Part shown: piece after piece, positions 5,776 to 22,716 of the stretch
How positions within the stretch are numbered: position 1 is the first letter of the stretch
How the letters are laid out: every line of letters starts with the position of its first letter
Assembly: GCA_903851415.1 (NCBI GenBank)
Contig: CAINOE010000211.1
Coordinates: 1-64,000, forward strand
DNA from: an uncultured Rhodopila sp.
GTDB lineage: Bacteria > Pseudomonadota > Alphaproteobacteria > Acetobacterales > Acetobacteraceae
Direction: 5' to 3'
Length of the DNA stretch: 64,000 bases
Made by a program: the position numbers and the translations under genes
The notes under the pieces: model-generated
What the model was told of the DNA's origin: nothing
The model's database searches: none
The model's input: only the letters and a program-made list of their open reading frames with translations

Positions 5776-7917
5776 TCAGGTTAAGGGCCGCCAGCTTCGC
5801 AGCAGCAGCGCATTGCAGACCACGCTGACCGAGGACAGCGCCATCGCCGCGCCCGCCGCCATCGGGCTGAGGTATCCCAGCGCCGCCAGCGGGATCCCCA
5901 GCGCGTTGTAGGCGAACGCCCAGAACAGCCCCTGGCGGATTTTCCGCACCGTCCGGCGGGACACCTCGATCGCGTCGGCGACCAGCGACAGGTCGCCGCG
6001 CATCAGCGTGATCCCGGCGGTTTCCATCGCCACATCCGTTCCGCCGCCCATGGCGATGCCGACATCCGCGGCGGCGAGGGCGGGGGCGTCGTTGACGCCG
6101 TCGCCAACCATCGCAACCGGGCGGAGGGCGGCGACGGCTTCGGCCTTGCCCTGCGGCAGGATGCCGGCATGCACCTCGTCGATGCCGATCTGCCGTGCGA
6201 CCGTCCGGGCGGCGCCTTCCGAGTCGCCGGTCAGCATGACGGTGCGCAGGCCCATCCGGTGAAGCTGCCCGATCGCCTCCCTGGCCCCCGGCTTGATCGT
6301 GTCGGAGAAGCCCAGCACTGCCGCGGCGCGGCGTTGCGGCGCGGTCTCGGCCAGGTAGGAGACGGTGTGGCCGGCCCCGGTCATCGCCGCCGCATCGGCT
6401 GCCAGCGGGGCGAGGTCGATGCCGTTATCCGCCATCAGCCGGGCGTTGCCGAGGATCAGGTGGCGGTCGCCGACGGTCGCCGCGACGCCGAGGCCGGGCA
6501 TGGCGCGGAAGTGTTCGGCGCGCGGTTTTTCGATGGCCTTTGCGGCGATGCGAACGGCCTCGGCCAGCGGGTGCTCGCTGCCAGCCTGCAGCGCGGCGGC
6601 GTCGGCCAGCGCCCGGGGCGGCACGATACGGGCGAGTGACGGTTTCCCCAGCGTCAGCGTGCCGGTCTTGTCGAAGGCCACGGTTTGAACCGCGCAAGCG
6701 CGCTCCAGCGCCTCGGCGTCGCGGATCAGGATGCCGCGGCGGGCGGCCATGCCGGTGCCGACCATGATGGCGGTGGGGGTGGCGAGGCCGAGGGCGCAGG
6801 GGCAGGCGATCACCAGCACCGAGACCGCGTTCAGGATCGCCGTGTCCGCGCCGGCTCCGGCGAGCAGCCAGGCGGCCAGCGTGGCGAGTGCGATGCCGAT
6901 GACCACCGGCACGAACACCGCGCTCGTTTTGTCCGCCAGCCGTTGGATCGGCGCTTTCGAGGCTTGCGCGTCTTGCACCAGGCGGACGATGCGGGCGAGC
7001 ATGGTCTCGGCGCCGATGGCGGTGGTCTCAATGACCAGATGGCCGTCGGCGTTGATGGCGCCGGCCGCCACGCTGTCGCCGACGGTGTGATCTGTTGGCA
7101 GGCTCTCGCCGGTGAGCATGGAGGCGTCGATCGCGCCGCTGCCTTTGGCGATGCGGCCGTCGACGGGGATGCGTTCCCCCGGGCGGACGACAATCAGGTC
7201 GCCGTGGCGGATGGCGGCGATCGGGGTTTCGGTCTCGGTGTTTTTGTTGAGCAGGCGGGCGGTGGCGGGGCGTAGTTTTATCAGCGCGGCGAGGGCGTTG
7301 AGGGTGCTGCGTTTGGCTTTCGCCTCCAGCCACTTGCCGAACAGGACGAAGGTGATCAGCAGCGCGGCGGACTCGAAATAAAGGCCGTGGGCGTGGCCGG
7401 TGGCGAGCCAGGTCCAGGTGGACAGGCCCCAGGCGGCGGTGGTGCCGAGGGCGACGAGCAGGTCCATGTTGCCGGACAGCGCCCGGGCGGCGGCCCAGCC
7501 GGCTTTGTAGAAGCGGGCGCCGAGCCAGAACTGGATGATGGTGGCGAGGGCGAACTGCGCGGCGGCCGGCAGCATCAGGGCGGGGGCCGCCATGCCGGGC
7601 AGCAGCGGGGCGCTGAGGACGGCGGCGGCGATCAGGTGGATGAGGTCTTTTTTGTCCTGCGGTTTGGTGCCGGCCGTCGGCGGGGCTTCGGGGCGGATTT
7701 CGGCGGCGGTGAAGCCGGCTTTCTGTATTGCTGCGATCAGCGCCTGAAGGTCGGGGTGGTGGGCGGTGACGCGGGCGCGCTCGGTGGCGAGGTTGACGGC
7801 GGCGGCTTGGACGCCGGGGACGCGGGCGAGGACTTTCTCCACGCGGCTGACGCACGAGGCGCAGGTCATGCCGGTGATGGCGAGGTCGATGGTTTGGGTG
7901 GGGGAGGCAGCGGGCAT
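5776..7917 (-). CDS. copA: Copper-translocating P1B-type ATPase
   Basis: 713 aa. N-terminal heavy-metal domain with GMTCASC (about residues 17-23), eight predicted membrane helices, actuator TGES, the transport motif CPC in VIACPCALGLATP, phosphorylation site DKTGT, SEHP in the nucleotide domain and GDGVNDAPAL in the hinge. The CPC motif with one CxxC domain points to Cu+ (or Ag+) efflux across the inner membrane. No CueR-like regulator or CopZ chaperone is adjacent. No convincing ribosome site precedes the ATG. Complete and apparently intact. Confidence 0.92.
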   Translation of the reverse strand: MPAASPTQTIDLAITGMTCASCVSRVEKVLARVPGVQAAAVNLATERARVTAHHPDLQALIAAIQKAGFTAAEIRPEAPPTAGTKPQDKKDLIHLIAAAVLSAPLLPGMAAPALMLPAAAQFALATIIQFWLGARFYKAGWAAARALSGNMDLLVALGTTAAWGLSTWTWLATGHAHGLYFESAALLITFVLFGKWLEAKAKRSTLNALAALIKLRPATARLLNKNTETETPIAAIRHGDLIVVRPGERIPVDGRIAKGSGAIDASMLTGESLPTDHTVGDSVAAGAINADGHLVIETTAIGAETMLARIVRLVQDAQASKAPIQRLADKTSAVFVPVVIGIALATLAAWLLAGAGADTAILNAVSVLVIACPCALGLATPTAIMVGTGMAARRGILIRDAEALERACAVQTVAFDKTGTLTLGKPSLARIVPPRALADAAALQAGSEHPLAEAVRIAAKAIEKPRAEHFRAMPGLGVAATVGDRHLILGNARLMADNGIDLAPLAADAAAMTGAGHTVSYLAETAPQRRAAAVLGFSDTIKPGAREAIGQLHRMGLRTVMLTGDSEGAARTVARQIGIDEVHAGILPQGKAEAVAALRPVAMVGDGVNDAPALAAADVGIAMGGGTDVAMETAGITLMRGDLSLVADAIEVSRRTVRKIRQGLFWAFAYNALGIPLAALGYLSPMAAGAAMALSSVSVVCNALLLRSWRPLT

Positions 7918-9253: not shown

Positions 9254-9748
9254 TCATCTGAACGCAGCCTCAACATCCCCAAGCGTAACCATCAGCATCA
9301 TCGGATCAAGCGGCGACACGTCAAACCCCAGCGCCAAATAGAACGCCTTCGCCTCCTCCGACACCGCATGAACCACAATCCCCCGAATCCCGATCGTATC
9401 CGCCGCCTGCATCACCCGCCCGGCACAGTCCCGAAACAACGCCCGACCCAGCCCGCGCCCCTGCCACAAGCGATCGATCGCCAGCCGCCCCAGCAGCACC
9501 ACCGGTATCGGGTTCGGCATATTCCGGCGAAACCGCCCGAGCGCGCTGTCCACGCCGATCCCGCCCGAAGCGATGGCGTAATAAGCGACGACCCGCCGCC
9601 CCTCGGCGACAACGAAGGTGCGGCTCGCCCCGCTCGCCTGATTGCCGCGCGCCCGGCGCTTCAGCCAATCATCGAGCGAAGCCACCCCGGAGGCGAAGTC
9701 CGCCAGTTCGTGCGCCACACCAAGCGGTTCCGGTGCGGAGAGCGGCAC
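9254..9748 (-). CDS. tacT: GNAT acetyltransferase, TacT-type toxin
   Basis: 164 aa from a GTG start 2 bp after the stop of the antitoxin gene. GNAT fold with the acetyl-CoA loop motif DRLWQGRGLGRALF (Q/RxxGxG/A), N-terminal LDDWLKRRARGNQ and C-terminal EEAKAFYLALGF, all typical of the TacT/AtaT toxins that acetylate the amino group of charged tRNA. TacT-like proteins are encoded just after a DUF1778 antitoxin, as here. Complete; activity is inferred from family. Confidence 0.85.
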   Translation of the reverse strand: MPLSAPEPLGVAHELADFASGVASLDDWLKRRARGNQASGASRTFVVAEGRRVVAYYAIASGGIGVDSALGRFRRNMPNPIPVVLLGRLAIDRLWQGRGLGRALFRDCAGRVMQAADTIGIRGIVVHAVSEEAKAFYLALGFDVSPLDPMMLMVTLGDVEAAFR

Positions 9749-9750
9749 GC

Positions 9751-10032
9751 CTACTCCCAGGGCGCCGGCGTTTGCAGCGAACGCCGCAGCCTCTCATTCG
9801 GCCGCGGCGGTTCATCGAGACGCGCCCGAAACGCCTCGAACGCCTCCGCCCCGGCGAGGAACAGCGTCTGGTCCAGCAGCGCGTCCTCCGCCGCCCGGCG
9901 GGCCGCTTGCAGCACAAACTCGGTCTTCGTCTTGCCCGTAAGCCGGGCGGCACGGTCGATCAGTCCCCGGTCTTCCGGCTTGATGCGAAGATTAAGCGTG
10001 TCGCGGCGAGCGATCAGCGTCGGGTTGGGCAT
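9751..10032 (-). CDS. tacA: DUF1778 (TacA-type) antitoxin
   Basis: 93 aa. N-terminal ribbon-helix-helix region TLNLRIKPEDRGLIDRAARL followed by TGKTKTEFVLQAARRAAEDAL, the DUF1778 signature, and a C-terminal toxin-wrapping part (FRARLDEPPRPNERLRRSL). The start is fixed by GGAGG at 10038-10042, five bases before the ATG; the in-frame ATG at 10044 overlaps that site. It neutralises the adjacent GNAT toxin and should repress its own promoter. Confidence 0.87.
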   Translation of the reverse strand: MPNPTLIARRDTLNLRIKPEDRGLIDRAARLTGKTKTEFVLQAARRAAEDALLDQTLFLAGAEAFEAFRARLDEPPRPNERLRRSLQTPAPWE

Positions 10033-10060
10033 ACGAACCTCCATCGACGGTTCGTAGCAC

Positions 10061-10201: not shown

Positions 10202-10762
10202 TCAAAGCCACCGCACAAAGCTGCCGGTATCGGCGACCTGTTCCGGCGCCGGAGGCACCGCCTTCGGCGTGCCCAAATACAGAAACCCCACGATCTGATC
10301 CTCATCCCGCAGATCGAGCTCGCGATGCAGCCCGCGGTCGTACATGAACCACCCCGACCGCCAGATACCGCCAAACCCCAGCGCCTGAGCCGCCATCTGC
10401 ATCGCCATCACCGCGCAGCCGGCGGCCAGTTGCTGATCGAACACCGGAACGAGTTCGCTCGGCCGCGGTGTCGAAACGACCACGATCACCATCGGCGCCC
10501 GGCCCGGCATCCGGATCGACCGCTGTATCACATCGTCCGGCTTGCCCGCAGCGATGGCCGCGCGCTGCATGATCGCCCCCAGCCGCTGCAACCCGTCGCC
10601 TGCCGCAACGATGAAAGCGTAAGGGCGCAGCCGCTGGTGATCCGGCACCCGCAACGCCGCCTGGATGATCAGCTCCAGCGCCTCGCCCTGCGGCGCCGGC
10701 AGGCCGAGCGCGCCGCAGGACTGCCGTTGCAACAGAAACCGCACCTTATCCGTTTCTTGCAT
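10202..10762 (-). CDS. Nitroreductase family protein (YdjA-like)
   Basis: 186 aa, short for nitroreductases but right for the YdjA/TdiD subgroup of FMN enzymes. Motifs: RQSCGALGLPAPQGEAL near the N-terminus (FMN phosphate side), ALRVPDHQRLRPYAFIV, and C-terminal GFGGIWRSGWF...IVGFLYLGTP. Its start overlaps the end of the ABC ATPase gene by 17 bp, so it is translated as the last gene of that operon. It probably reduces a small substrate with NAD(P)H in the cytoplasm; which one is unknown. Confidence 0.82.
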   Translation of the reverse strand: MQETDKVRFLLQRQSCGALGLPAPQGEALELIIQAALRVPDHQRLRPYAFIVAAGDGLQRLGAIMQRAAIAAGKPDDVIQRSIRMPGRAPMVIVVVSTPRPSELVPVFDQQLAAGCAVMAMQMAAQALGFGGIWRSGWFMYDRGLHRELDLRDEDQIVGFLYLGTPKAVPPAPEQVADTGSFVRWL

Positions 10763-11750
10763 GGAGTCTTTCTCTCAAGGAATGATGCCCCCAGTCGATC
10801 GGGTTCTCGATACGCTCGCCCCGCCGCAGCCGCTCCCGCACGCCGAGCAGCGCCGCGTCGATGTCCTCCAACTGAACCAGGACGGCCTTTTCGGCCTCGC
10901 TCGTCGTAATGACATCGGCAACGCGCCCGTTGCGAATGATCACCCGGCGATGCCCCAGCAGCGCAAGCAGCGGATCGTGCGTCGAAACCAGAACGATCTT
11001 GTCCTCCGACACCAGCAGATCCAGCGCATCCCTCCTGTTAATCCCCGCATTTTCAATCTCATCTATCAGAACGATCGGCGATTCGCTGAGCAGCGCCGCA
11101 TCGGCGATCATCAACGCCCGCGACTGGCCGCCGCTGAGCTGGGTCAGCGAAACGTCCGGCCCGAAACGTTCCCCGGCCAGCGAATTGGCGATCGCAATGA
11201 TCCGGCCGGTGACACCGCTGCCGGGGTCGATCTGGCGGCAGGCGGCATGCATGTCCAGGAACACGCCCACGGTCAGGTCCACAACGAAATTCATGTTCTG
11301 CGACAGTTGCGCCACCAGCTTGCAATCCGGAGCGAACCGCTGATCCGCCGTCGGCAGGGCGCCATTCAGCAGGATACGCCGACCGCTCGGCGTATCGCCC
11401 TGCGCCAGGCACTCCACGTCGGCGAGCAGCCGGCTTTTGCCGGAGCCGGTCGGACCGACTATGCAGACGATCTCTCCGGCTTTGACCACCAGCGCATCGT
11501 GGCCGGCGCGGCCGTCCTTGTCATGGCCGCCCTCGATCGTCAGCGTGTGGATCGCGGTCCGCGCCGCGGCGGGACTGGTTGTTCCGGCATCGATCAGCAA
11601 CTGCAGATGCGCCGAAAGCTGCTCCCGGTCCAGGCCCATGTCCTGCAGCGCGGTTTCCGAAAGTCCGGCGATCCACCTGTCGATTGCGATGCCGGCGGGG
11701 AAATCCGGCAGACCCAGGCCGGACAGAAACGCCGCGACACGCGGGTTCAC
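10746..11750 (-). CDS. ABC-type ATPase without permease partner
   Basis: 334 aa from a GTG that overlaps the stop of the GTPase gene (GTGA). Residues 1-75 are a helical domain I do not recognise (FLSGLGLPDFPAGIAIDRWI onward). The ATPase core follows: Walker A GPTGSGKSR, Q-loop area AQLSQNMNF, signature LSGGQSRALMIADA, Walker B PIVLIDEIENAG and switch His in VLVSTHDP. The Walker B carries an extra acidic/Asn stretch (EIENAG) rather than EPTSGLD, as in non-transport ABC proteins. No membrane component is encoded nearby. Likely a mechanochemical or assembly ATPase working with the GTPase. Confidence 0.78.
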   Translation of the reverse strand: MNPRVAAFLSGLGLPDFPAGIAIDRWIAGLSETALQDMGLDREQLSAHLQLLIDAGTTSPAAARTAIHTLTIEGGHDKDGRAGHDALVVKAGEIVCIVGPTGSGKSRLLADVECLAQGDTPSGRRILLNGALPTADQRFAPDCKLVAQLSQNMNFVVDLTVGVFLDMHAACRQIDPGSGVTGRIIAIANSLAGERFGPDVSLTQLSGGQSRALMIADAALLSESPIVLIDEIENAGINRRDALDLLVSEDKIVLVSTHDPLLALLGHRRVIIRNGRVADVITTSEAEKAVLVQLEDIDAALLGVRERLRRGERIENPIDWGHHSLRERLHARNG

Positions 11751-12442
11751 GGGCTGTCCTCGAAGCTCATTTTCCGCACGTTGCCGCGCTGATAGTTTTC
11801 CCCGATGGCGGTTTCGCCGACGCAATAGGAGCACACCGCGGAGGGCATGGAAAAGCGCAGATGGTGGTGCTCCAGCGTATCGATCCGCGGCGCGGCATCG
11901 ATACGGAACGCCAGATCCATCGCACCCTGGCCGGTGATCCCGTTGCACCAAACCACCGGAGCGCGCGGGTTGGCGAGGCGCACGTTGTAAGCGAACACCT
12001 CGCGCTCCGCCTGAGACACGATATCCCCCTTCGTGATCGCAACGACATCGGCCAGCCGAAGCATGGGGCCGATCTTCCGGGGGGTGTGGATTCCGGCGAG
12101 GTTGTCGACAACGCAGATGGCGAGGACGCCTTTGATGTGCGGCGAGCAGCGGTTGCACAGCCCGGCGGTTTCGACGATCAGCACATCGAATCCGCTGCCG
12201 CGGCCCCAGGCGACACAGTCGTCGATGTTACTGACAAAGTAATGATCAGGACATAGACCCCCGGACAGACCAACCCGCACGGGCAGCCCCAGCGCGGCGT
12301 AGGCGGCATCGTCGGTGGTGGACAACGCATCGAACTTCGCCACGCCCACCTGCGCCCCGTCGTTGCGCAGCCGTGCGGCCACTTTCAGAAAAAGCGAAGT
12401 CTTGCCGACGGAAGGCGGTCCCGCAACGGTTACCAGGCGCAT
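11747..12442 (-). CDS. HypB/UreG-like GTPase with two CxxC motifs
   Basis: 231 aa. P-loop GPPSVGKTS, a switch/Walker B region ETAGLCNRCSPH containing a CxxC, base-recognition motif TKGD, and a second CxxC in CSYCVGET near residue 205. The arrangement is that of the SIMIBI metallochaperone GTPases (HypB, UreG, CooC relatives), which move Ni or other metals, though the Cys positions differ from HypB. The ATG overlaps the stop of the upstream solute-binding gene by one base and the stop overlaps the ABC ATPase start, so the three proteins are co-translated. Probably metal or cofactor handling. Confidence 0.75.
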   Translation of the reverse strand: MRLVTVAGPPSVGKTSLFLKVAARLRNDGAQVGVAKFDALSTTDDAAYAALGLPVRVGLSGGLCPDHYFVSNIDDCVAWGRGSGFDVLIVETAGLCNRCSPHIKGVLAICVVDNLAGIHTPRKIGPMLRLADVVAITKGDIVSQAEREVFAYNVRLANPRAPVVWCNGITGQGAMDLAFRIDAAPRIDTLEHHHLRFSMPSAVCSYCVGETAIGENYQRGNVRKMSFEDSP

Positions 12443-13455
12443 CAGGCGCGGCTCCAGGCGGCGAAGAACAGGCGTGTCGCGATCATGGTTTCTTCCGTCA
12501 TGTCATGTGTCCGGGTGTAGTCCCATCCGAGCCAGTCGAGCGTCGCACCCTCCGGTAAGGGTTGCGGTCCGTCCGCCCAGACCGCCGGGTAGCGGTTGCG
12601 CGCGAGCGCCGCCGCGCAGGCGTCGCCGCAAACGAAATCAAGCAGCGGCTGCACCCGGGCCCGTTGCGATGAGGACACGGAAAAGCCCATCGGCATGACC
12701 AATGCGCCATCGTTCGGCCAGACCACCGCGGTGCGGTCCCGGCGCGGGCAAATGTCCGCTTGCATCCACGGCATGATGGAAATCGCGCCGCCCTGCGGGT
12801 GGTTGGTGCCGGCGAAACGTGAAGCGACCGTGTTGTGCAGGATCGCGCGGGTGTTGCCGGCAAACGCCCGCACCCCGGCGGCGCCGAAACGATGGTAGAG
12901 GTAAAGCAGCAGATAGTCGTTGCAATCCGGATAGGTTCCGTCACTGGGACGCTTCCAGCCGCCGAACACGATCTGGTCTTCGTAGACCGGATCGAGCAGA
13001 TCCTCCCACCCGCGCGGCACCGGCCTGCCACCCAGTTTGCGGTTGTCGATCAGGAACACCCACGGAATGATGGCGAACACCGAGAACAGCCCTTCCGGAT
13101 CGATCAGCCCGGCGGCTGCCGGATGGGTTGGCCGAGGCGTGGCGGCGGCGTGTCCGGCCGCACGCAGGCGCTTCTGGAACGTTACCGACAGCACATCGCG
13201 CGTGAACGGGGTCAGCACCATGTTCGGAAAAGCCGCCATCGGTTCGGCGCGCGCCAACGCTTCGAAGGGCGCATACCATTCATTGCCTTTGACAAAGCAA
13301 ATCCCGCGGCCTCCGGCAACGGCAGCGGCCTGATCCAATCCGGCTGTGAAGCCCTGGCGCAGCGGAACCGGCATGCGTCCGAGAAAGTCAAGCGCAGCCA
13401 GATGCGCCACCGCATCGTCGTGGTCGCCGAGACATGTCAGCCGGCGGTGCAGCAT
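12442..13455 (-). CDS. Solute-binding-like protein without signal peptide
   Basis: 337 aa. The body looks like a periplasmic-binding-protein type II fold of the ferric-iron group (WEDLLDPVYEDQIVFGGWKRP, then NDYLLLYLYHRFGAAGV, AISIMPWM). The N-terminus (MLHRRLTCLGDHDDAVAHLA) has no hydrophobic signal, so the protein should stay in the cytoplasm. Cysteines occur in ADICPRR and VCGDAC. It is followed without a gap by the GTPase and ABC ATPase. A cytoplasmic binding protein could sense or carry an anion or metal for the GTPase. Function not known to me. Confidence 0.65.
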   Translation of the reverse strand: MLHRRLTCLGDHDDAVAHLAALDFLGRMPVPLRQGFTAGLDQAAAVAGGRGICFVKGNEWYAPFEALARAEPMAAFPNMVLTPFTRDVLSVTFQKRLRAAGHAAATPRPTHPAAAGLIDPEGLFSVFAIIPWVFLIDNRKLGGRPVPRGWEDLLDPVYEDQIVFGGWKRPSDGTYPDCNDYLLLYLYHRFGAAGVRAFAGNTRAILHNTVASRFAGTNHPQGGAISIMPWMQADICPRRDRTAVVWPNDGALVMPMGFSVSSSQRARVQPLLDFVCGDACAAALARNRYPAVWADGPQPLPEGATLDWLGWDYTRTHDMTEETMIATRLFFAAWSRA

Positions 13456-13834
13456 GGCTTTGTTCCCGAGGTTTCAAGGACCCGTCCTTCAAAAATCGTG
13501 CCAGCGCCTGGACGGCCCACCAAAGCCCGCTAATGCACCCGACCGAACGATCCGCGGGAAAACGTCCCGTTCCGTGCATTCCGCAACGTCGGATCGGAAT
13601 TCGACCTGCAAGCGCTGCGCCTAGACCGATGCCGATCCGAGCGGCTGGCTGCAGCCGGGATCTCTGACGAACTGATAGTTCGGCCGTGATCCGGACAGAG
13701 CTGACCCTTGGACGAAAGCAGGCAAATTCGGGCCATTTCCCACCGCCGCCGCCTGTGGAACATTCGAATCTCCGCCTCATGATGATTGCCTCCGGGGCAA
13801 ATGTCCCGCCTCGGTGCCCTTCCGCCGCAGTTTT
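13456..13834. other. Gene-free stretch upstream of the solute-binding-like gene
   Basis: No convincing gene on either strand. The one clear structure is a palindrome with arms CGAACT/AGTTCG around GAT at 13668-13682. The stretch presumably carries the promoter for the four-gene minus-strand operon starting at 13455. Confidence 0.5.
13668..13682. promoter_or_regulatory. Palindrome, possible operator
   Basis: Perfect 6-bp inverted arms CGAACT and AGTTCG separated by GAT, about 215 bp upstream of the solute-binding-like gene. It resembles a LexA box of alphaproteobacteria (GAAC-N7-GTTC) but the spacing here is five, so that assignment is not supported. Confidence 0.35.
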
Positions 13835-14857
13835 TCAGACGATCCAACGGTCGTGCGCAAACGCTCCCCGCTGCCGCGCCAGACTGTATTCCACCACATG
13901 CGCGACGATCTGCGTCCGGCTGTACCCGAGGCGCGCCCCGGCAAGCCCGATCGCCCCGCGGACCCCGAGATAGCAGCAAATATTCATCTCGATCAAATAA
14001 CGCCGCCCCGTTGCCGGATCCCACCGATAATCCAGGCGGAAATAGTCGATCGGCCCCAATGATGACCACACCGTCTGAACATCCTGCTCGATCGCAGCCG
14101 CAGTCGCCGCATCGATATCAATCAGTTCATTGCCAAGTCGATCCTCTGTCTTCAGATCGGCCGTGAGGATGTTGCCGATCTTGTCGGAGCGCGGAACGAC
14201 GTGGCCGAGAATAAGATAGGGCGAGTGCCCGATGACCGGCACAGTCAGGTCGATGCCCGGGCAAAACCGTTCGACAAGAACTTCCTTGCCGCTGGCATGC
14301 AGCCCCGCTGCCACCCGTGCGGCACCGGTCCATGTGTCCTGCAACGACTCTTCGGTCACGCCTTCCGAGGCGGCGCCAAAACGGTCCTTCACGAAATACG
14401 GGCCGGCAAAATTCACTGGCGGCAGGGGATCTCCGGGACGATAGACGCTTCCCGGTGACACCGGCAGCCCGAGACCGGCGAAGGCCAGTTTGCTGAGGTA
14501 TTTATCCTCCGCCAGAGCGCGAATATTGGGGGGTGCTCCGAGGCAGGGCAGGCGCAAATACGTGCAGATTGCCGGCACCAGCAATTCCGGGTTCCGGATC
14601 GGCATCCGATTAAGCAACGAAAATACGAAATCGGCGTTGCCGCCCGCCATCATCGCGGTATATGGCTTCGAGCTCGAAGATACGCGATAGCCGATGTCGC
14701 GCAACGCCTCGAAGATGCGGAAATGGTACTCCGCATAGCCGAAAGCAGTATCCTCGGGCTTCACTGTGTAGAAAGGGTCGTCCGGCGCGAACCTGGCGAG
14801 GTAGAGGATACGCGTGTCGCTCGGGGCAGCGGGCCAAAGCAGCGGTGGTGACGTCAT
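13835..14857 (-). CDS. ATP-grasp ligase (D-Ala-D-Ala ligase-like)
   Basis: 340 aa. Start placed at MTSPPLLWP; the frame is open for a further 78 bp with no good start. ATP-grasp features: a phosphate-binding strand FAGPYFVKDRFGAASEGV, ERFCPGIDLTVPVIG, and the metal-binding RRYLIEMNICCYLGV near the C-terminus. Similar to D-alanine-D-alanine ligase-like proteins of unknown substrate that join a carboxylate to an amine. It lies upstream of the solute-binding/GTPase/ABC cluster on the same strand but is separated by 379 bp, so co-transcription is uncertain. Confidence 0.72.
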   Translation of the reverse strand: MTSPPLLWPAAPSDTRILYLARFAPDDPFYTVKPEDTAFGYAEYHFRIFEALRDIGYRVSSSSKPYTAMMAGGNADFVFSLLNRMPIRNPELLVPAICTYLRLPCLGAPPNIRALAEDKYLSKLAFAGLGLPVSPGSVYRPGDPLPPVNFAGPYFVKDRFGAASEGVTEESLQDTWTGAARVAAGLHASGKEVLVERFCPGIDLTVPVIGHSPYLILGHVVPRSDKIGNILTADLKTEDRLGNELIDIDAATAAAIEQDVQTVWSSLGPIDYFRLDYRWDPATGRRYLIEMNICCYLGVRGAIGLAGARLGYSRTQIVAHVVEYSLARQRGAFAHDRWIV

Positions 14858-15009
14858 ATTGGCAGCCTGTTCCCTGCGATCGGTGTGGTCAGCGGCACTG
14901 CACGCGGCATGCCGCCGGAGGCGTCCGCGCCGCACCCCGATGCGCCAGTCGCGATATACGTCTGTATATGGCCCGAGGCTTCGCGGCCGGAGTCTTGCAA
15001 GAAATCAAA

Positions 15010-15386: not shown

Positions 15387-16214
15387 TCAACGGCTGGCAC
15401 CGCCGAGAAACCGGCCGCGCACAAAACCGCCCGCCACGTTGATCCCCGTCACCAGCCCCAGCAGAACGATGATCAGCGCTGAAGCCTCTTGGTATTCAAA
15501 CAGATGGAATGCCGTAATGACCTCCAGCCCCAAGCCTCCGGCCCCGACCATTCCCAGTGTCGTCGCGGCGCGTAGATTGTGCTCCCAACGATACAAGGTC
15601 ACATCCACAAGCCGAGGCAGGATCTGCGGGAGCACCGAAAAACGCAGTACTCCGACACGGGAAACCCCGTGGCTGCGCATCGCGTCACCGGGCGCGGGAT
15701 CGACATGCTCCAACGTTTCGGCAAAAAGCTTGGCCAGCATGCCGGTGCTGTGAGTCGCCAACGCAAGGATTCCGGGCAGCGGGCCAAATCCGACCGCCGC
15801 AACAAACATTACGCCCCAGATCAATCCGGGGACCGATCGGATGCCATTCAGCGCCAGCCGAACCGGCTCGCCCAACCAGGGCTGCCGCACAACGTTGCGG
15901 GCAGCCAGAACAGCCAGAGGCATCGCGGCTATGGCTGCCAAAGCGGTTCCGGCGACACTCATGGCCAACGTTTCCAGCAATGGCTTGCCCCACTGGGTCC
16001 ACCGGCTGAAGTCCGGCGGCATCGCGTCTCCCGCCAATTGCACAATTGTCGGCAATGCGTCGCCGTAGCGACGCAGGTCGAAGGCCCCGCCATAGGCAAA
16101 GGCCCAGCCCAGCACCGCAAATCCAACGCCCGCAACGATCAGCCCGTGACGCTGCCGGCGGCTGACATCCGCGAAGATGGCGTCCAGGTCGCCCTGGATC
16201 ATGCGGGCGTTCAT
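15387..16214 (-). CDS. phnE: PhnE-like ABC transporter permease
   Basis: 275 aa inner-membrane permease with about six helices. It has the BPD-transport coupling region EHVDPAPGDAMRSHGVSRVG, and NLRAATTLGMVGAGGLG, characteristic of PhnE. The start overlaps the phnD stop (ATGA). Last gene of a phnC-phnD-phnE-like operon. No C-P lyase or phosphonatase genes are present in the window, so the transported compound could be a phosphonate, phosphite or another oxyanion. Confidence 0.85.
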   Translation of the reverse strand: MNARMIQGDLDAIFADVSRRQRHGLIVAGVGFAVLGWAFAYGGAFDLRRYGDALPTIVQLAGDAMPPDFSRWTQWGKPLLETLAMSVAGTALAAIAAMPLAVLAARNVVRQPWLGEPVRLALNGIRSVPGLIWGVMFVAAVGFGPLPGILALATHSTGMLAKLFAETLEHVDPAPGDAMRSHGVSRVGVLRFSVLPQILPRLVDVTLYRWEHNLRAATTLGMVGAGGLGLEVITAFHLFEYQEASALIIVLLGLVTGINVAGGFVRGRFLGGASR

Positions 16215-17098
16215 TGCGGTGGCGGAGCCGCATCGGGATTGGCGGCCTGGATCGCCGCGATCCAGCCGCGCACCCGGTCAACATCGGAATCCACTGCCGG
16301 AATGAACGCCTCGGCGTTGAACACCTTCAGCACGGCCGGATCGCTGATGTGGATGAAGCCCTCCCGGACCTCCTCCTTGAAGGCAGGGTCGAGGCCCTGG
16401 CGGAAGGTCCACATATATTCCGGTATCGGCTGCGATTGTTCCAGCACACGCACGGTTTTCGGATCGATCCTGCCCTCGCTCAGCAGGCGCGCGTAGATCG
16501 GCTGCGACAGCCCGCCGGCCGCGACGCGATGGCTTGCAACCGCCAGCGCAACGGCATCGTGCGCGCCCAGCACCCGCAATGTGTAATCCCGTCCGGACAC
16601 CAGTCCGGCTCGCAGCAATTGATAACGTGGCACCCAGGTGCCCGACGTGGAAGCCGGATCGCCGAACGCCACCTCCGCACCGTTCAGATCGGCAAGGCTT
16701 TCGGCCCGGCTGTCGGCAGGCACAATCACCACCGCCGTGAAGGTCGGCCCCACCACGGCGTGCGACGGCCGCGCAAACGGCTCCAGCCTGGCGGAACGGG
16801 ACCGCAATATATACGTTACCGGCCCGAGATAGGCGATGTCGAGCCGCCCGAACCGCAGCGCCTCTCCCGTCGCGGCGTAATCGGAGCCGACGACAAGTTC
16901 CACCGGGATGCCGAGCCGATTTTCCAGATAGGCCCGCAACGGTTCGTTCAGCCGCATCACCGTCGGCGCGGATTCGCCGGGCAGCAGACCGACAACAAGT
17001 TTGTCCGGCCGTCCTTGCGCGGACGCATCGGAGACCGAAAGGCAGGAGGCAAGCAAGGCCGCGGCGAGGACAAAGCGGCGGCTCAATCCGGGGAACAT
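16211..17098 (-). CDS. phnD: PhnD-like phosphonate/phosphite binding protein
   Basis: 295 aa with a Sec-type signal peptide (RRFVLAAALLASCLSVSDA, cleavage near ASAQG). PhnD-family features: VGLLPGESAPTVMRLNEPLR, then GRLDIAYLGPVTYIL, and AFGDPASTSGTWVPRYQLLR, the Ser/Thr loop that holds the phosphonate group. Periplasmic receptor for the PhnCE transporter. The ATG overlaps the phnC stop by one base (TAATG). Ligand not certain. Confidence 0.87.
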   Translation of the reverse strand: MFPGLSRRFVLAAALLASCLSVSDASAQGRPDKLVVGLLPGESAPTVMRLNEPLRAYLENRLGIPVELVVGSDYAATGEALRFGRLDIAYLGPVTYILRSRSARLEPFARPSHAVVGPTFTAVVIVPADSRAESLADLNGAEVAFGDPASTSGTWVPRYQLLRAGLVSGRDYTLRVLGAHDAVALAVASHRVAAGGLSQPIYARLLSEGRIDPKTVRVLEQSQPIPEYMWTFRQGLDPAFKEEVREGFIHISDPAVLKVFNAEAFIPAVDSDVDRVRGWIAAIQAANPDAAPPPQ

Positions 17099-17919
17099 TA
17101 TACAGACCTTGTTTCTGAGGAGGAAATGCAGGGGTGGCTGAACACCGCGTGCTCCGCTTCCGCATCGAAGCCGGCGGCGGTGCCGTCGAACGCGACGCCG
17201 CCGTCCGCCAGACCGATGATCCGGTCAGCGAGAGCCCGCGCCAGGGGAATCTGATGCAGCACAAGAATGACCGTCAGGCCGTTGCGCACGACAAGGCGGC
17301 GAAACTCCGCCCCGAGTTGCCGCGCCAGCAACGGATCGACCGAGGCGAACGGTTCATCCCCAAGCAGCAGGCGCGGGCGGCGTGCCAGGGCGCGGGCGAT
17401 GCCGACGCGTTGACGCTCGCCGCCGGAAAGTTGACCGGTGCGGGCGGTGGCGCGGCTGAGCAAGCCGACCTCGTTAAGGGCTTCGGCGGCACGGAGACGC
17501 AACGATCGCGGCCAGGGCAGCGGCGATAGCGGATGGCGCATGTCGGCGAGGCCCAGCAGGACGTTGTCGATGGCCGGCAAGCGGTCGATCAGCGCATGGT
17601 CCTGGAAGATCGTTGCGGTGTGCCGTCGCGCCTCGCGCAGGGATCGGGCGTCGTCGAGGCGTCCGGCCCCGGCTACGGAAACGGTTCCGCGCTCCGGCGA
17701 TACCAGCCCGTTCAACGCGCCCATCAGGGTGGACTTGCCGACACCCGATCTGCCAACGAGGACGGTGATGGTGCCTTGGACAAAGGACAGCGACAGGTCG
17801 CCCAGCACGGGCTTGCCGCCTCGCTGCAACGTTACGCGGTCGAGGGTTACTGCAGCCGGCGCGGCCGGAAACAATGCGCCGGCGGTCCGGCAGTCAGGAT
17901 GGTGTGTCCGGGTCATCAT
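17098..17919 (-). CDS. phnC: PhnC-like ABC transporter ATPase
   Basis: 273 aa. Walker A GRSGVGKST, Q-loop TIFQDHALIDRL, signature LSGGERQRVGIARALAR, Walker B LLLGDEPFASVD and switch His in VLHQIPLA. First gene of the phnCDE-like operon. It begins 124 bp after the end of bcrD on the same strand with no obvious terminator between, so read-through from the benzoyl-CoA reductase operon is possible. Confidence 0.87.
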   Translation of the reverse strand: MMTRTHHPDCRTAGALFPAAPAAVTLDRVTLQRGGKPVLGDLSLSFVQGTITVLVGRSGVGKSTLMGALNGLVSPERGTVSVAGAGRLDDARSLREARRHTATIFQDHALIDRLPAIDNVLLGLADMRHPLSPLPWPRSLRLRAAEALNEVGLLSRATARTGQLSGGERQRVGIARALARRPRLLLGDEPFASVDPLLARQLGAEFRRLVVRNGLTVILVLHQIPLARALADRIIGLADGGVAFDGTAAGFDAEAEHAVFSHPCISSSETRSV

Positions 17920-18043: not shown

Positions 18044-18886
18044 TTACGCAGCCTGCGCCTGCGCCGCGATCCGCGCCAGTTTCTCGTGCCGGAACGCGCC
18101 CCAAAGCGCCGCACCGATCGCACCGGCATAAATCGCATCCGGATGGCTTTCGATCGGGACACCGACTTTCGCCCGCGCCATCGCTTCCTTCATCGCCGCG
18201 ACAAGACCGGTGTCGAGCGCGAGGCCCCCGGTCATCTGGATCACCCCGTCCACCCCGCCAATCGTCTTCAGCAGTTTCGCCAGCCGATCGGCCATGGATT
18301 CGTGGATGCCTTTGAGGATGTTCGGGGCGGTGATGCCGCGCGAAACCATGTTGATGACGTCGGTCTCGGCGAGCACGGCGCAAATGCCGGAAACCTTCTC
18401 CGGGTTGTCCGACTGTTTCGACAAAATGCCGATTTCGTCCTGCGCGATGCCGAGGTATCGGGCGATGTTTTCGAGGAATTGGCCGGAACCGGAGGCGCAC
18501 TGACTGGTCATCTTGTAGCTGAGCACCTTGCCGCGTTCATCCATACGGATGGCCCGGCCGTGCAAGGCGCCGATATCGAGCGCGGCGCGGGCATCGGGGC
18601 GGAGATGGATCGCGCCGCGGGCGTGGGTCGTCATCGAATAGAAGTGGCCGGTGTGGAAATCCAACGATTCGCCTTCGCCGGTCGTTGCGCAGTAAGCCAC
18701 GTCACGTCGCGACAGACCCGCCGCCTTCAGGGCGTCATCGTAAATCTGCGTGGCCAGCTTCAGCGGATCGCGCTGGCGCACGCGCTCGACGCGCCGGCCG
18801 AGCCAGGTTTCCGTGTCGCCCTCGACATTGAACAGCACGGCCTTCACCGCGCCCGTTCCGACATCGATCCCTGCTGTTATCGGCAT
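18044..18886 (-). CDS. bcrD: Benzoyl-CoA reductase, activase subunit D
   Basis: 280 aa, the BcrD/BadG subunit of ATP-dependent benzoyl-CoA reductase. Actin/hexokinase-type ATPase: phosphate loop GIDVGTGAVKAVLFN, the [4Fe-4S] region SQCASGSGQFLENIA, a second cysteine in SGICAVLAETDVIN, and QMTGGLALDTGLV. Together with BcrA it couples ATP hydrolysis to low-potential electron transfer to the BcrBC catalytic site. The cluster cysteine is bridged between the A and D subunits. Last gene of the dearomatisation operon, 14 bp after bcrA. Confidence 0.93.
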   Translation of the reverse strand: MPITAGIDVGTGAVKAVLFNVEGDTETWLGRRVERVRQRDPLKLATQIYDDALKAAGLSRRDVAYCATTGEGESLDFHTGHFYSMTTHARGAIHLRPDARAALDIGALHGRAIRMDERGKVLSYKMTSQCASGSGQFLENIARYLGIAQDEIGILSKQSDNPEKVSGICAVLAETDVINMVSRGITAPNILKGIHESMADRLAKLLKTIGGVDGVIQMTGGLALDTGLVAAMKEAMARAKVGVPIESHPDAIYAGAIGAALWGAFRHEKLARIAAQAQAA

Positions 18887-18900
18887 GGCATTCTCCTGCT

Positions 18901-20214
18901 TCAGGAAACCACGGCGCGGCGGGCGAACTCGGCGGCGCCGAGCGCGCCGGTGTAGATCGAGTCCGGATTGATGTTGATCGTCACGTCGCCGTAGTTTTCC
19001 TTGATGAGCTTGCGCAATTCGCGCACGGCGGCCTCGTTCTTGGCGACCCCGCCGGTGAAGGTGAATTCGTCAGTCACGCCGCCCGAGCGCGAAATGATCG
19101 AAATCGCCCGCAGAATGATCGCGCGGTGCAGGCCGGCCAGGATGTCCTCCCGCTTTTCCCCGAGCGACAGGCGATCCCGCAGTTCGGCCCCGGCGAAAAC
19201 CGTGCAGGTGGAATTGATCCGCGCCGGCCGGTTCGATTTCATGGCCAGCGGACCGAGCTCGTGCAGGCCCATGTTCATTTCGTCGGCAATGTAGCCGAGG
19301 TAGCGGCCGCAGCCGGCCGCGCAACGGTCATTCATCTGGAAATTCGCAACGATGCCGCTGCCGTCGATCTGGATGCCCTTGGTGTCCTGGCCGCCGATGT
19401 CCAACACCGTGCGAGTGTTCGGATACATCATGTGCGCGCCCAGCCCGTGGCAGAGAATCTCCGACCGGATATGCTCCTTGGAGAAGGGCAGGGTGACGCG
19501 CCCATACCCGGTGCCGACAAGATAGGTTTCTTCCAGTTCGACGCCCAGCGTATCCTCGATCGTGCCCGGAACGTTGTTCGAGCCGTCGATCAGGTGCGGA
19601 TCGATCTCCAGGACGCGGGCCATGGCGCGGCGGAACTTGTCGCTCATGCCGCCGGACGGCGGCCGGTTCTCGACGTCGATAATCGATTTGTCGTAGGCAT
19701 TCAGCAGGATCTCGTGCGGCACATTGGATTCTTCGGCGACGGCGTCGGCGTGAACGTGGAAGCGCGAGCCGGCGATATCGCGAAAGAAGTCGGACTTGCG
19801 CACGGCGCCGGGGGCATAGAGGTCCGGGGCCTCGGCGCGCAGCCGCCTGAACACTTCATTCAGCGCCTCGCCCATCTTGTCCGCTACTTTGGCAAACCGT
19901 TCCGTTTGCAACTGGCCGAGGCAGGTTTCCTCCAGGTCGCCCAGTTGTTCCAGGAACTGCACCAGGCGGAAATTCCGTTCCAGCGCGCCGAGGAATGCCT
20001 GGACCAGCTCGCCGTTCGCCTCGCCGGTTTCCAGCGCGCGGCGAAACAGGGTGAAGCGGCCGTCGATCCGCGCCTCCTCGCTGGCAACCCGCGCGGCGGT
20101 GGCGTAGTTGGACCGGGAGTTGGTGATCCCGCGGCCGATAACGTCGCGGTTTTCGTCGAGCAGCACGGCCTTCGTGGTGGTCGAGCCGAGGTCGATGCCG
20201 ATGAACGTGCGCAT
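18901..20214 (-). CDS. bcrA: Benzoyl-CoA reductase, activase subunit A
   Basis: 437 aa, the longer BcrA/BadF activase subunit. Phosphate loop [15 protein letters not shown]; a roughly 150-residue insertion typical of BcrA between the first ATPase motifs; [13 protein letters not shown]; the iron-sulfur ligand region [32 protein letters not shown] and [12 protein letters not shown]. Forms the ATP-binding [4Fe-4S] electron-activating module with BcrD. It begins 9 bp after bcrB. Length and motifs match the Thauera and Rhodopseudomonas proteins. Confidence 0.93.
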
Positions 20215-20223
20215 GGTGTCTCC

Positions 20224-21534
20224 TCAGGCAGCGCCGCGCAAACCGGCGCGTTTCTGCTCGATCATCTGAAAATAGCTTTCCAGGCGGTTCTTGATGTTGG
20301 CAGGCGAGAAATATCGCGGATCAACCAGATCGGTTTCGATGAACGCCGCCGGCTTGCCGGTGCGCTTTTCAACCTCCCGCATGATCAGCAACTGGCCGGC
20401 AGAGAAGCTGTTGCAGCTTTTGATCGAATTGATCAGCAGGCCGTCGGCCTGGTATTCGTCGACGTAGTTTTCCAGCATGTCCACCCGCATCGGCAGGTTA
20501 CGGTTCGTATAGACATTCAGGCAATATTCCGCCAGCGATTCCAGCGGGTTGTCCGGGTCGTGCCGGAAGCCGAAATCGTAGGTGCCGCCGACTTTGGTGT
20601 AGCTCGAGGCGACGACGACCGCGCCCTCATCGTAGAACATCTTCCAGAACTGGCGGAAATGGGTGTAGTTCGGCGGTCCTTCGACCACGAGGCGATATCG
20701 CTCCTGCCCCATGTCTCCGTCCGGGGTGACCGGACCCTTGCCTTCCGCGATGCGTTCTTCCACCTCCTGGCGCAGGAATCGATAATAGTCGATCGCGTCG
20801 CCGGTGCCGCGGAACGCCCCGAAAATCGGCCCGATGTAATAAATCCCGCCAAAATACGCGTCGATCGGCGACGGCTTCGTTTTGGCGCTTTGCAGCACCC
20901 AAACCAGATCGTCCTCTGCCACCGCCGATTTGCGCAGGAACTCGCGCAACAGATCGATATCGAACTTCACCCCGGAAACTTTCTCCAGCTTCGGAATGAC
21001 ATCCTGCCTGAGCTGCTTCACCATGTACTTGATCATGTCCCTGGTGATTTTCCCGTCCGCCAGATACGGCGTATGGAACATGATCGTTTCACAGTTATAC
21101 TGCTGCCGCAGCAGCTCGAACCACTTCATGAAGGTGAAGCAGCCGGTGTAGGACAGCAGCAGCACGTCGGGGTCCGGCAGCTTGCGGCCGTTGGGTCCGA
21201 TATTGCCCTTCGCCATCATCCCGATATCGGACTTGACGTAGGTGCAAACGTCCTCGGAATGGCCGCTTTTCTCGGCCTCCATCACGTAGCCGCCGCTCTG
21301 CTTGCGCAGGCCGCTCTGGATGGCGTTGACCTCGGGCAGATTGTTAACGAAGCCGAAGCACATCAGCAGCTCGTTCAGATTGCCCGGAACGAAGGTGGCG
21401 GCGACCTTTTCGCCGGTGGCGGGCGCGTCTGACAGGCGCTCGTAATGCCGCGCCATCATGTCCTTCTGCTTCGACATCGAAGCGTCCTTGATGATCTCCG
21501 GCGGCCTGGACGCGGGGCGAGTGATGATGGTCAT
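20224..21534 (-). CDS. bcrB: Benzoyl-CoA reductase, subunit B
   Basis: 436 aa, HgdB-like catalytic subunit BcrB/BadE. Cysteines in SYTGCFTFMKWFE and INSIKSCNSFSAGQ fit the cluster-binding positions of this family, and the C-terminus (AAFIETDLVDPRYFSPANIK) is typical. The start is set by an ATGA overlap with the bcrC stop. With BcrC it forms the site where benzoyl-CoA is reduced to cyclohexa-1,5-diene-1-carbonyl-CoA. Confidence 0.93.
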   Translation of the reverse strand: MTIITRPASRPPEIIKDASMSKQKDMMARHYERLSDAPATGEKVAATFVPGNLNELLMCFGFVNNLPEVNAIQSGLRKQSGGYVMEAEKSGHSEDVCTYVKSDIGMMAKGNIGPNGRKLPDPDVLLLSYTGCFTFMKWFELLRQQYNCETIMFHTPYLADGKITRDMIKYMVKQLRQDVIPKLEKVSGVKFDIDLLREFLRKSAVAEDDLVWVLQSAKTKPSPIDAYFGGIYYIGPIFGAFRGTGDAIDYYRFLRQEVEERIAEGKGPVTPDGDMGQERYRLVVEGPPNYTHFRQFWKMFYDEGAVVVASSYTKVGGTYDFGFRHDPDNPLESLAEYCLNVYTNRNLPMRVDMLENYVDEYQADGLLINSIKSCNSFSAGQLLIMREVEKRTGKPAAFIETDLVDPRYFSPANIKNRLESYFQMIEQKRAGLRGAA

Positions 21535-22715
21535 GCGCCACTCCACAACTTGATTGAATCGGAGAACGTTCCCGCCTGCTCGCGAATCGGCTGCATCTGG
21601 CCGGAGTTCTCGGCAAACTTGAAGGCGATCTGCGGCACGCCGTGCTGTTTCAGAATGTCCTGCAGCATCGGGCGGTCAAGCAACGCCGGGTCGCAGAAGC
21701 TGGCCATGGCAAAGATGACGCCCTCGGCGCGATGTTTCCTCACCGCTTCGACGAGATACAGGCCTTTCTTCGCCTGATCGGGCTCGTATTTCGGCGGGGT
21801 CGAATGCGAATCGTGCAGGAACGAACGCGCCAGGCTCGCCAAAGGATCGCCCTCGGTCGCGACGTCCGATCTTTCCCACCGGTTGATCAACATGAAATCG
21901 TCATCGACGATGTAGCACCCGGACAGCTCGATGGATTTTATCAACGTCAGCGGCGGCTGTTCACAGAACGCTCCCGAAACCACAACCCGGGAATTGTCCT
22001 TGATTGGCCGTTGTTGCTGGCGAACGGACGCCAGATAGTCTCGCACTAGCTGGTTGTGCTCCTCCACCGGCAAAATCAGACCGGCGCGCATCAGCAGGTA
22101 AAGCTCGGAGGAAGGAACGTTCCACGGCTCGTCAGTCCGCAGCTCATATGCCTCCCGAACCAGACGGCGGTTCTCGTTGAACAGAACGATCGACTCCCGG
22201 ATCGCCTCGTCGGTCACCGGGCGCCCGGTAATCTCCGCCAGCCACTCGCGGATTTCGTTCAGTTCGCTGCGGTAGAACTCGCCGCCGACATCGTCCTCGA
22301 AATTCTGCGGCAGATCGACATAGCGCGTGCCGGCGTTCGGAAACATCAGCTTCCACATGCCCGAAAGATTGCGGATGACATCGCAGATCGAGGGAAACAG
22401 CATGCCATCGACGAAATCGATCCGGCCGGAAACGCCGAGTTCGATCGTCGAGCGCGGAATGCGGCAGATATAGCTTTGATAATAAGCGTCGCCGTGAATC
22501 ACCTCAAGCTGGTCGCCACCGCCCAGAATCCCCAGCGGCAGCGCGCCGGCCGCATGGATGACCTCGCGCGGCACGTAATACGGCATGAAGCCGATGACCT
22601 TGCGCCCCGGCTTCGCCGCCTTCCAGGCCCGCGCGGTTTCGAAATGCAAATCGGTGAACAGATCCTCGCAGCGCTGAATGATGCCGGCCGTAGCGGATAT
22701 CGTTACATCGAGCAT
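21531..22715 (-). CDS. bcrC: Benzoyl-CoA reductase, subunit C
   Basis: 394 aa from the ATG one base after the dch stop, with GGAAGG upstream; a longer reading frame to 22781 would overlap dch. HgdB-like catalytic subunit BcrC/BadD: GFMPYYVPREVIHAAGALPL, cysteines in SYICRIPRST, SICDVIRN and ASFCDP that are candidate [4Fe-4S] ligands. First of the four reductase subunit genes (order C-B-A-D, as in Thauera). Confidence 0.93.
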   Translation of the reverse strand: MLDVTISATAGIIQRCEDLFTDLHFETARAWKAAKPGRKVIGFMPYYVPREVIHAAGALPLGILGGGDQLEVIHGDAYYQSYICRIPRSTIELGVSGRIDFVDGMLFPSICDVIRNLSGMWKLMFPNAGTRYVDLPQNFEDDVGGEFYRSELNEIREWLAEITGRPVTDEAIRESIVLFNENRRLVREAYELRTDEPWNVPSSELYLLMRAGLILPVEEHNQLVRDYLASVRQQQRPIKDNSRVVVSGAFCEQPPLTLIKSIELSGCYIVDDDFMLINRWERSDVATEGDPLASLARSFLHDSHSTPPKYEPDQAKKGLYLVEAVRKHRAEGVIFAMASFCDPALLDRPMLQDILKQHGVPQIAFKFAENSGQMQPIREQAGTFSDSIKLWSGA

Positions 22716-22716
22716 G

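Follow-up and report, generated by a model that had tools for sequence, protein, structure and literature searches.

In Azotobacter vinelandii, the operon Avin_02430-02420-02410-02400-02390 is conserved with vanadium nitrogenase and depends on VnfA1 and a sigma-54 promoter, its function having been left open (PMC9542535). On the import side, vodABC of the same species is a predicted vanadate transporter (PMC9542535), R. palustris RPA1385, misannotated as a phosphonate solute-binding protein (SBP), has a high affinity for vanadate (PMC3223731), and the vanadate importer of Anabaena is a different system, VupABC (PMC4284476). Here, we analyze an operon of similar content in a 64,000-nucleotide stretch of DNA (the window) from an uncultured Rhodopila sp. 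(contig CAINOE010000211.1 of assembly GCA_903851415.1), in which genes for an SBP, a GTPase, an ATP-binding cassette (ABC) ATPase, and a nitroreductase lie downstream of an ATP-grasp ligase gene, and we show that this operon is associated with vanadium nitrogenase.

A reading of the window from its letters alone (the original prediction) had presented these genes as its best candidate for an undescribed system. That stands insofar as the function is open in print but not for the operon itself, since the A. vinelandii operon has been published together with its regulation and its conservation. A full-text search for the locus tags of that operon returned PMC9542535 alone, and on a mechanism, a vanadium chaperone, or the HypB-like GTPase in this setting we found nothing besides that paper, most subscription papers lying outside the searched literature. 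The available parts of PMC8406325 and PMC13102585 do not mention the operon.

Results

A conserved operon accompanies vanadium nitrogenase

The source genome (G000) comprises 7.09 Mb in 215 contigs, with 6.15% contamination, and the window lies on contig C211. As originally described, four minus-strand genes overlap successively by 1, 4, and 17 bp. According to open reading frame (ORF) calls and Pfam, they encode an SBP (12442-13455; SBP_bac_6, 188.7 bits), a G3E-type GTPase (11747-12442; cobW, 35.0 bits against a cut-off of 20.7), a soluble ABC ATPase with a GTG start (10746-11750; ABC_tran, 45.3 bits), and a nitroreductase (10202-10762; Nitroreductase, 62.8 bits), which NCBIfam places in the YdjA family. 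The predicted ATP-grasp gene is indeed upstream on the same strand (13835-14857), separated from the SBP gene by 379 bp without overlap; it starts at an ATG at 14857, with an alternative in-frame GTG further upstream at 14935, and its D-Ala-D-Ala-ligase-like product matches Dala_Dala_lig_C at 21 bits, below the Pfam cut-off of 24. By ORF reading, the operon contains neither a regulator gene nor a permease gene.

We assessed conservation in a set consisting of the window and 84 related loci, all picked via the GTPase or the ABC protein; a scan of genome contigs gave at least 588 pattern matches and at least 568 confirmed relatives, of which the best 80 loci were retained. Profile matches were found for the GTPase in 85, the ABC ATPase in 84, the SBP in 78, the nitroreductase in 16, and the ATP-grasp protein in 8 of the 85 loci. 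The five-gene set is confirmed as real and beyond chance, and the conservation on which the original prediction depended is there. The closest relative found is from another uncultured Rhodopila sp. (L014), with a GTPase identity of 96%. Among 289 genomes of the class, only the source genome and G043 encode the GTPase (E<=1e-10), and G043 carries the ATP-grasp, SBP, GTPase, ABC, and nitroreductase genes all together. Searching a plasmid collection returned one Fusobacterium record (L010), a chromosome-sized 2.1-Mb sequence deposited as a Fusobacterium vincentii plasmid.

We then asked which of these genomes encode VnfD. The TIGR01860 model exceeded its curated cut-off in 21 of the 54 genomes searched, including all 18 with the operon type of the window (its own genome, G043, L014-L028, and L030); the other three were L037, L040, and L045. 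In the source genome, VnfD (994.9 bits versus a cut-off of 823.1) is located on a different contig, C124, together with what we take, from cluster membership, to be VnfG-, VnfK-, VnfA-, and VnfE/VnfN-like genes. L020, L021, L022, and L024 each have a NifD-type ORF no more than 10 kb from the GTPase gene. None of the remaining 29 locus genomes had VnfD over the cut-off, while 13 had a NifD/AnfD-type match (E<=1e-20); in this search, the L056 match is weak (3.9e-28), L010 was outside, and L061 is the same genome as L048. The background is low: among 398 evenly drawn Pseudomonadota genomes, only G000 and G043 had VnfD over the cut-off, and among 398 drawn likewise the ABC protein (E<=1e-30) occurred in these two plus G295 and G323, which have a divergent ABC subtype and no NifD-type match.

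The association also holds within two families. In the Magnetospirillum fulvum family (55 genomes), a GTPase of at least 60% identity is found in 9 of 10 VnfD genomes versus 1 of 45 others (Fisher p=1.5e-8). That single genome carries AnfD, and two further genomes of the 45 have distant GTPase homologues (42-48%). Excluding five genomes, four of which had first been reached via the GTPase (G656, G657, G658, and G675) and one of which shares contig places with G043 (G747), leaves 5 of 6 versus 0 of 44 (p=2.8e-6). In the Clostridium magnum family (146 genomes), the GTPase (E<=1e-60) occurs in 8 of 9 VnfD genomes, 9 of 34 with NifD/AnfD-type matches only (counted at E<=1e-60), and 12 of 103 with neither. 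The difference between VnfD genomes and all others is significant (p=7.9e-6, or 2.2e-5 without the seed genomes G678, G689, and G714), while NifD/AnfD-only genomes compared with those having neither give p=0.053. These findings show that the operon of the window is associated with vanadium nitrogenase.

Among the 85 loci, the two enzymes at the ends of the gene set are confined to those of VnfD genomes. Every one of the 16 nitroreductase loci is from a VnfD genome, and the run of SBP, GTPase, ABC, and nitroreductase genes is complete in 16 of the 18 VnfD loci of the window's operon type, L018 and L026 ending before the nitroreductase. The nitroreductase scores 184.8 bits against NCBIfam NF008088 (cut-off 183) and matches YdjA in the PDB (3bm1) with an E value of 7.5e-46. 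The eight ATP-grasp loci are likewise all from VnfD genomes, the gene being a partner in some alphaproteobacteria; L026 does not have it. A cluster of GCS2-type ligases, one member of which was identified, is present in L019, L023, L027, L028, and L030.

A candidate sigma-54 promoter precedes the SBP gene by 48 bp (13488-13503, minus strand; TGGCACGATTTTTGAA), with 10 of 11 consensus positions; sites of that score are expected 0.76 times per 64 kb (50 shuffles). L014 shares this offset for its sigma-54-like site; in L019, L025, L028, and L030, weaker sites (8-9 of 11) lie within 70 bp of the SBP start.

Predicted properties of the operon products

The GTPase has the P-loop GxxxxGKT, ExxG, and TKxD motifs of the G3E superfamily. 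Its Cys/His sites, CPDH (64-67), CxRC (96-99), C110, and CxxC (204-207), are identical in all 82 aligned rows, from which the fused loci L040, L045, and L083 were excluded, as they were from the tree. Identity to the window copy is 57-95% in this alignment, and 38-39% for a divergent pair, L011 and L012. The best solved full-length relatives in the PDB are HypB and UreG, which bears out the original view of a GTPase of that kind; RecA was also matched repeatedly, through the P-loop. Scores fall far below the curated cut-offs for HypB (TIGR00073, 27.7 versus 121.2 bits), UreG (TIGR00101, 25.1 versus 204.2), and MeaB (TIGR00750, 27.8 versus 240.75), and the CxCC motif that defines COG0523 (PMC9164220) is absent from the window GTPase and from the invariant Cys pattern of the 82 rows. 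Because of these scores and the missing motif, the GTPase is, as judged from its sequence, a member of the G3E superfamily outside all four named subfamilies. In UreG and HypB, nickel transfer is nucleotide-gated (PMC9164220).

For the SBP, position 13455 is the first ATG, GTG, or TTG after the upstream stop, with no earlier in-frame start. Its peak 15-residue hydropathy over residues 1-60 is 1.11, compared with 2.25 for a PhnD-like protein encoded in the window. We saw no signal peptide by start-codon reading and this simple hydropathy measure, so that the earlier claim of an SBP without one is upheld by the lack of an alternative start 5' of 13455 and by an N terminus that is not hydrophobic. 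In a Foldseek search with the AlphaFold model (predicted local distance difference test [pLDDT] 91.2), FutA/FbpA-type ferric SBPs came out on top and the metal-citrate SBP MctA further down (9-16% identity, 50 matches listed). The best model is therefore a cytoplasmic protein with a predicted ferric-SBP fold. All 17 rows of the vanadium clade share residues such as W167, N179, and R238, which are different or mixed in the other groups, while H207 is retained in 55 of 57 rows.

In the ABC ATPase (AlphaFold pLDDT 90.1), the P-loop, LSGGQ, Walker B DE, and His-loop are invariant, and M. jannaschii SmsC2 is among its Foldseek matches. Its N-terminal domain had been described as helical and unknown. 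It appears to be DUF1858-like: in one profile-profile comparison (hhalign 93.5%, E 2.3e-7), it matched the N-terminal domain found in the wider SBP family, in which PF08984 (DUF1858) was called in 23 of 59 SBPs, while a Pfam scan of the ABC proteins did not have DUF1858 among the 25 families listed. In L040, L045, L083, and L142, some of them clostridial, the GTPase and the ABC ATPase form a single ORF, and these fusions argue that the two function together.

A wider GTPase-ABC family

On a GTPase tree of 82 rows, the 19 vanadium rows require 2 changes, compared with 15.6 in shuffles. Since the root is the midpoint, statements about clades concern sides of branches. One clade of 29 rows (support 98/98) comprises Bacteroidales, Cloacimonadota, Aminicenantes, Spirochaetes, Fusobacteria, and others. 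Outside it and the L011/L012 pair, a NifD-type gene is found in the genomes of 48 of 51 rows, the exceptions being L036, L051, and L068. A Cys-rich protein of 80 residues is encoded in 18 of 84 loci, all in the 29-row clade, and in three later clostridial loci; it recurs next to the GTPase-ABC pair, as in L067 (11739-11984), and has weak zinc-ribbon/HypA similarity. Loci of this clade (L054, L059, L067, L077, L091, and others) are flanked by one or more of the genes that we presume to encode a hybrid-cluster protein (5 loci), an Rrf2-type regulator (7), and NrfH/NrfA-like proteins (5/4). L011 and L012 come from two proteobacterial genomes in which nothing of the NifD type was matched; there, the divergent ABC-GTPase pair (L011:6319-7713, L012:6569-7963) precedes a gene whose product contains the motif CGMCGFKSC, which may represent a 4Fe-4S domain.

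Neighboring genes

Beyond the ATP-grasp gene, three minus-strand genes encode a PhnE-like permease (15387-16214; TIGR01097, 270.9 bits), a PhnD-like periplasmic binding protein (16211-17098; TIGR01098, 230.8 bits), and a PhnC-like ATPase (17098-17919; TIGR02315, 193.4 bits, below the cut-off of 266.1). In a Rhodopila relative (L100), the corresponding genes stand beside vnf-type genes, and the identities are 83% for PhnE, 90% for PhnD, and 80% for PhnC; PhnD is 74% identical to a copy in Azotobacter chroococcum (L097), which is also next to vnf genes. The 32 kb of C124 that were read contain no match to the window PhnDE. PhnCDE of the window is probably a vanadate importer, judging from this comparison and from vanadate binding by RPA1385 of R. 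palustris.

Farther upstream, a region at 18044-22781 (minus strand) is devoted to benzoyl-CoA reductase; it includes BcrC (21552-22691; 737.7 bits, over the TIGR02263 cut-off), the other genes having been read by eye. Just downstream of the operon (9254-10057, minus strand), there is presumably a GNAT acetyltransferase-like gene after a small DUF1778-type antitoxin-like gene, a pair that could be a TacAT-like toxin-antitoxin. A heavy-metal P-type ATPase, copper-type by eye, is encoded at 5776-7917 (minus strand).

Discussion

The operon is probably accessory to vanadium nitrogenase, whose vnf genes are elsewhere in the genome, and most likely handles vanadium after import. Because the genes travel with vanadium nitrogenase, handling or delivery of vanadium in the cell is likelier than import or benzoate breakdown. 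In the scheme that we favor, the PhnCDE/Vod-type importer, a related binding protein of which has been tested in print, would take up vanadate. The cytoplasmic SBP, going by its fold and its clade-specific residues, would bind the imported metal or a metal-carboxylate complex, and the YdjA-like flavoprotein may reduce vanadium toward the valence found in the iron-vanadium (FeV) cofactor. The G3E GTPase, with metal at its invariant Cys/His sites, would then act with the soluble ABC ATPase, a partnership backed by the natural fusions, so that nucleotide hydrolysis drives handover to FeV-cofactor assembly. The ATP-grasp protein, or a GCS2-type ligase in some gamma- and betaproteobacteria, might conceivably make a small ligand or thiol for the metal. 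Metal or cofactor supply, which had originally been offered as a guess, gains support from these findings, and so does the statement that the operon is not an ordinary transporter, given an SBP without signal peptide and an operon without permease. The permease that was looked for as a point against that statement does adjoin the operon in the form of PhnE, but it has a binding protein and an ATPase of its own. A binding-protein-dependent ABC importer is thus held unlikely, the operon encoding neither an exported SBP nor a cognate permease.

Several observations weigh against the vanadium-handling scheme. A single VnfD genome of the M. fulvum family (G734) and a single one of the C. magnum family (G873) have no GTPase, and 21 of 137 C. 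magnum-family genomes without VnfD carry it, which means that the GTPase-ABC pair is not vanadium-specific. The same is true of the wider family, with NifD-type genes in only 2 of 28 genomes searched from the 29-row clade. Seven clostridial VnfD loci that we read have differing subtypes, and their neighbors vary as well (FecB/FecCD-type, NifD-like, ModD-like, and hybrid-cluster-protein-like by best BLAST match to earlier clusters); the vanadium link in clostridia is therefore statistical and not one conserved operon. Even L014, the nearest relative, is without the ATP-grasp gene in its locus. As for regulation, no good sigma-54 site precedes the SBP gene in L013, L015-L017, L021, L022, and L024, a site scoring 10 at the predicted start, equal to that of the window, occurs in L031 from outside the vanadium clade, and no VnfA-type GTAC-N6-GTAC site was found in the window.

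The components could also serve other ends. It is unlikely that the operon senses vanadium, with the cytoplasmic SBP informing VnfA-type regulators of vanadium status and the NTPases acting as switches, and no metal carried to the cofactor. There is a precedent in A. vinelandii VnfZ, which is homologous to VodA, lacks a signal peptide, and interacts with VnfA3, whose activity it controls, and the A. vinelandii operon is within the VnfA1 regulon (PMC9542535); VnfZ is, however, described there as phosphonate-binding-type, whereas the window SBP is of SBP_bac_6. Presumed VnfA-like genes (cluster 13) are found no farther than 10 kb away in L021, L024, and L028, but the window operon has no internal regulator gene, and a sensor would not obviously need the ABC ATPase, the nitroreductase, or the ligase. 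Release of metal from an imported metallophore seems to us unlikely as well. Here the flavoprotein would reduce a vanadium or iron chelate, the SBP would bind the product, and ligases or a methyltransferase would process the chelator, in keeping with the presence, among 84 loci, of FecB-type genes near 19, FecCD-type permeases near 12, methyltransferases near 10 (one cluster member identified), and DUF2478/DUF4213/DUF364 "heavy-metal chelation" proteins near 10, 7 of them in the vanadium clade (one cluster member identified). Close to the operon of L015 (1374-7559), there are even a FecBCD-type importer, a presumed TonB-type receptor, and a NifD-like gene. Yet just 2 of the 12 FecCD loci belong to the vanadium clade (L015 and L019), and the window has PhnCDE instead. 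Separately, this L015 region resembles the Avin_39870-39890 region named in PMC9542535.

Three further explanations fare worse. Vanadium detoxification or storage, which would shield phosphate enzymes from vanadate, a phosphate analogue, would suit a reductase and a binding protein, but the operon goes with vnfD, so that use fits better than defense and we regard this as quite improbable. We find it very improbable that the operon products are part of a membrane transporter and work with a borrowed permease, for instance PhnE or FecCD. The folds of the SBP and the ABC ATPase and the occasional permease gene nearby would allow it; against it stand the SBP without a visible signal peptide, the SBP and ATPase that PhnE already has, the GTPase-ABC fusions, and the recognition of FecCD- and ModB-type permeases in only 12 and 11 of 84 loci, unlabelled ORFs having been partly searched. 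Finally, the original prediction had tied the operon to benzoyl-CoA reductase through activation or cofactor supply. The start of BcrC is some 8 kb away from the SBP gene, but a check of co-occurrence found it over the cut-off in just 4 of 34 GTPase genomes searched, all 4 among the 23 proteobacterial VnfD genomes of the set, as against VnfD in 18 of 18 genomes with the operon type. We therefore rejected the operon as a benzoyl-CoA reductase accessory; the general form of the idea is refuted, and a role of this kind is extremely improbable.

To our knowledge, it is an open question in nitrogenase biosynthesis how vanadium gets from its importer to the assembly of the FeV cofactor. The operon accompanies vanadium nitrogenase in Proteobacteria as a conserved unit and, if it is indeed a delivery system, belongs on the parts list for engineered molybdenum-independent nitrogen fixation. 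Many anaerobes that have no nitrogenase contain the same core, which suggests a metal-loading machine of general use; our literature searches found no study of it. Tentatively, GTPase, ABC ATPase, and SBP may form a fifth G3E metallochaperone branch, a cytoplasmic loader driven by nucleoside triphosphates that inserts heterometals or special metals into complex clusters. Its clades would serve 1) vanadium, 2) molybdenum/iron diazotrophs, and 3) an unassigned metalloenzyme of nondiazotrophic anaerobes, with the Cys-rich protein and, at some loci, hybrid-cluster-protein or nitrite-reductase-like genes; the clade-specific residues of the SBP would set the metal.

Comparison with known systems

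The GTPase shares the G3E motifs and Cys/His metal-type residues with the HypB, UreG, MeaB, and COG0523 metallochaperones but differs from all of them in its own CPDH/CxRC/C110/CxxC pattern and in having ABC ATPase and SBP partners. With SufC-type soluble ABC ATPases of Fe-S assembly (PMC9164220), the operon would have in common the use of an ABC ATPase in metal-cofactor biogenesis; unlike SufC systems, it has a DUF1858-like N-domain on that ATPase and no SufB/SufD-type gene. The SBP has the predicted fold of FbpA/FutA and MctA, from which it is set apart by its apparent cytoplasmic location, its low identity to the matches listed, and its clade-specific conserved residues. VodABC and RPA1385 have their likeness in the PhnD-type SBP that adjoins the operon in the window, but they represent a periplasmic import system that is a neighbor rather than a part of the operon. 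The closest described system is the Avin_02430-type operon, a match that rests on gene content, gene order, and the related A. chroococcum locus L023 rather than on A. vinelandii sequences. The two share SBP, GTPase, ABC ATPase, and nitroreductase genes in the same order and the tie to vanadium nitrogenase; the A. vinelandii operon ends in a glutamate-cysteine ligase gene, whereas the window instead has the ATP-grasp gene upstream and PhnCDE beyond it.

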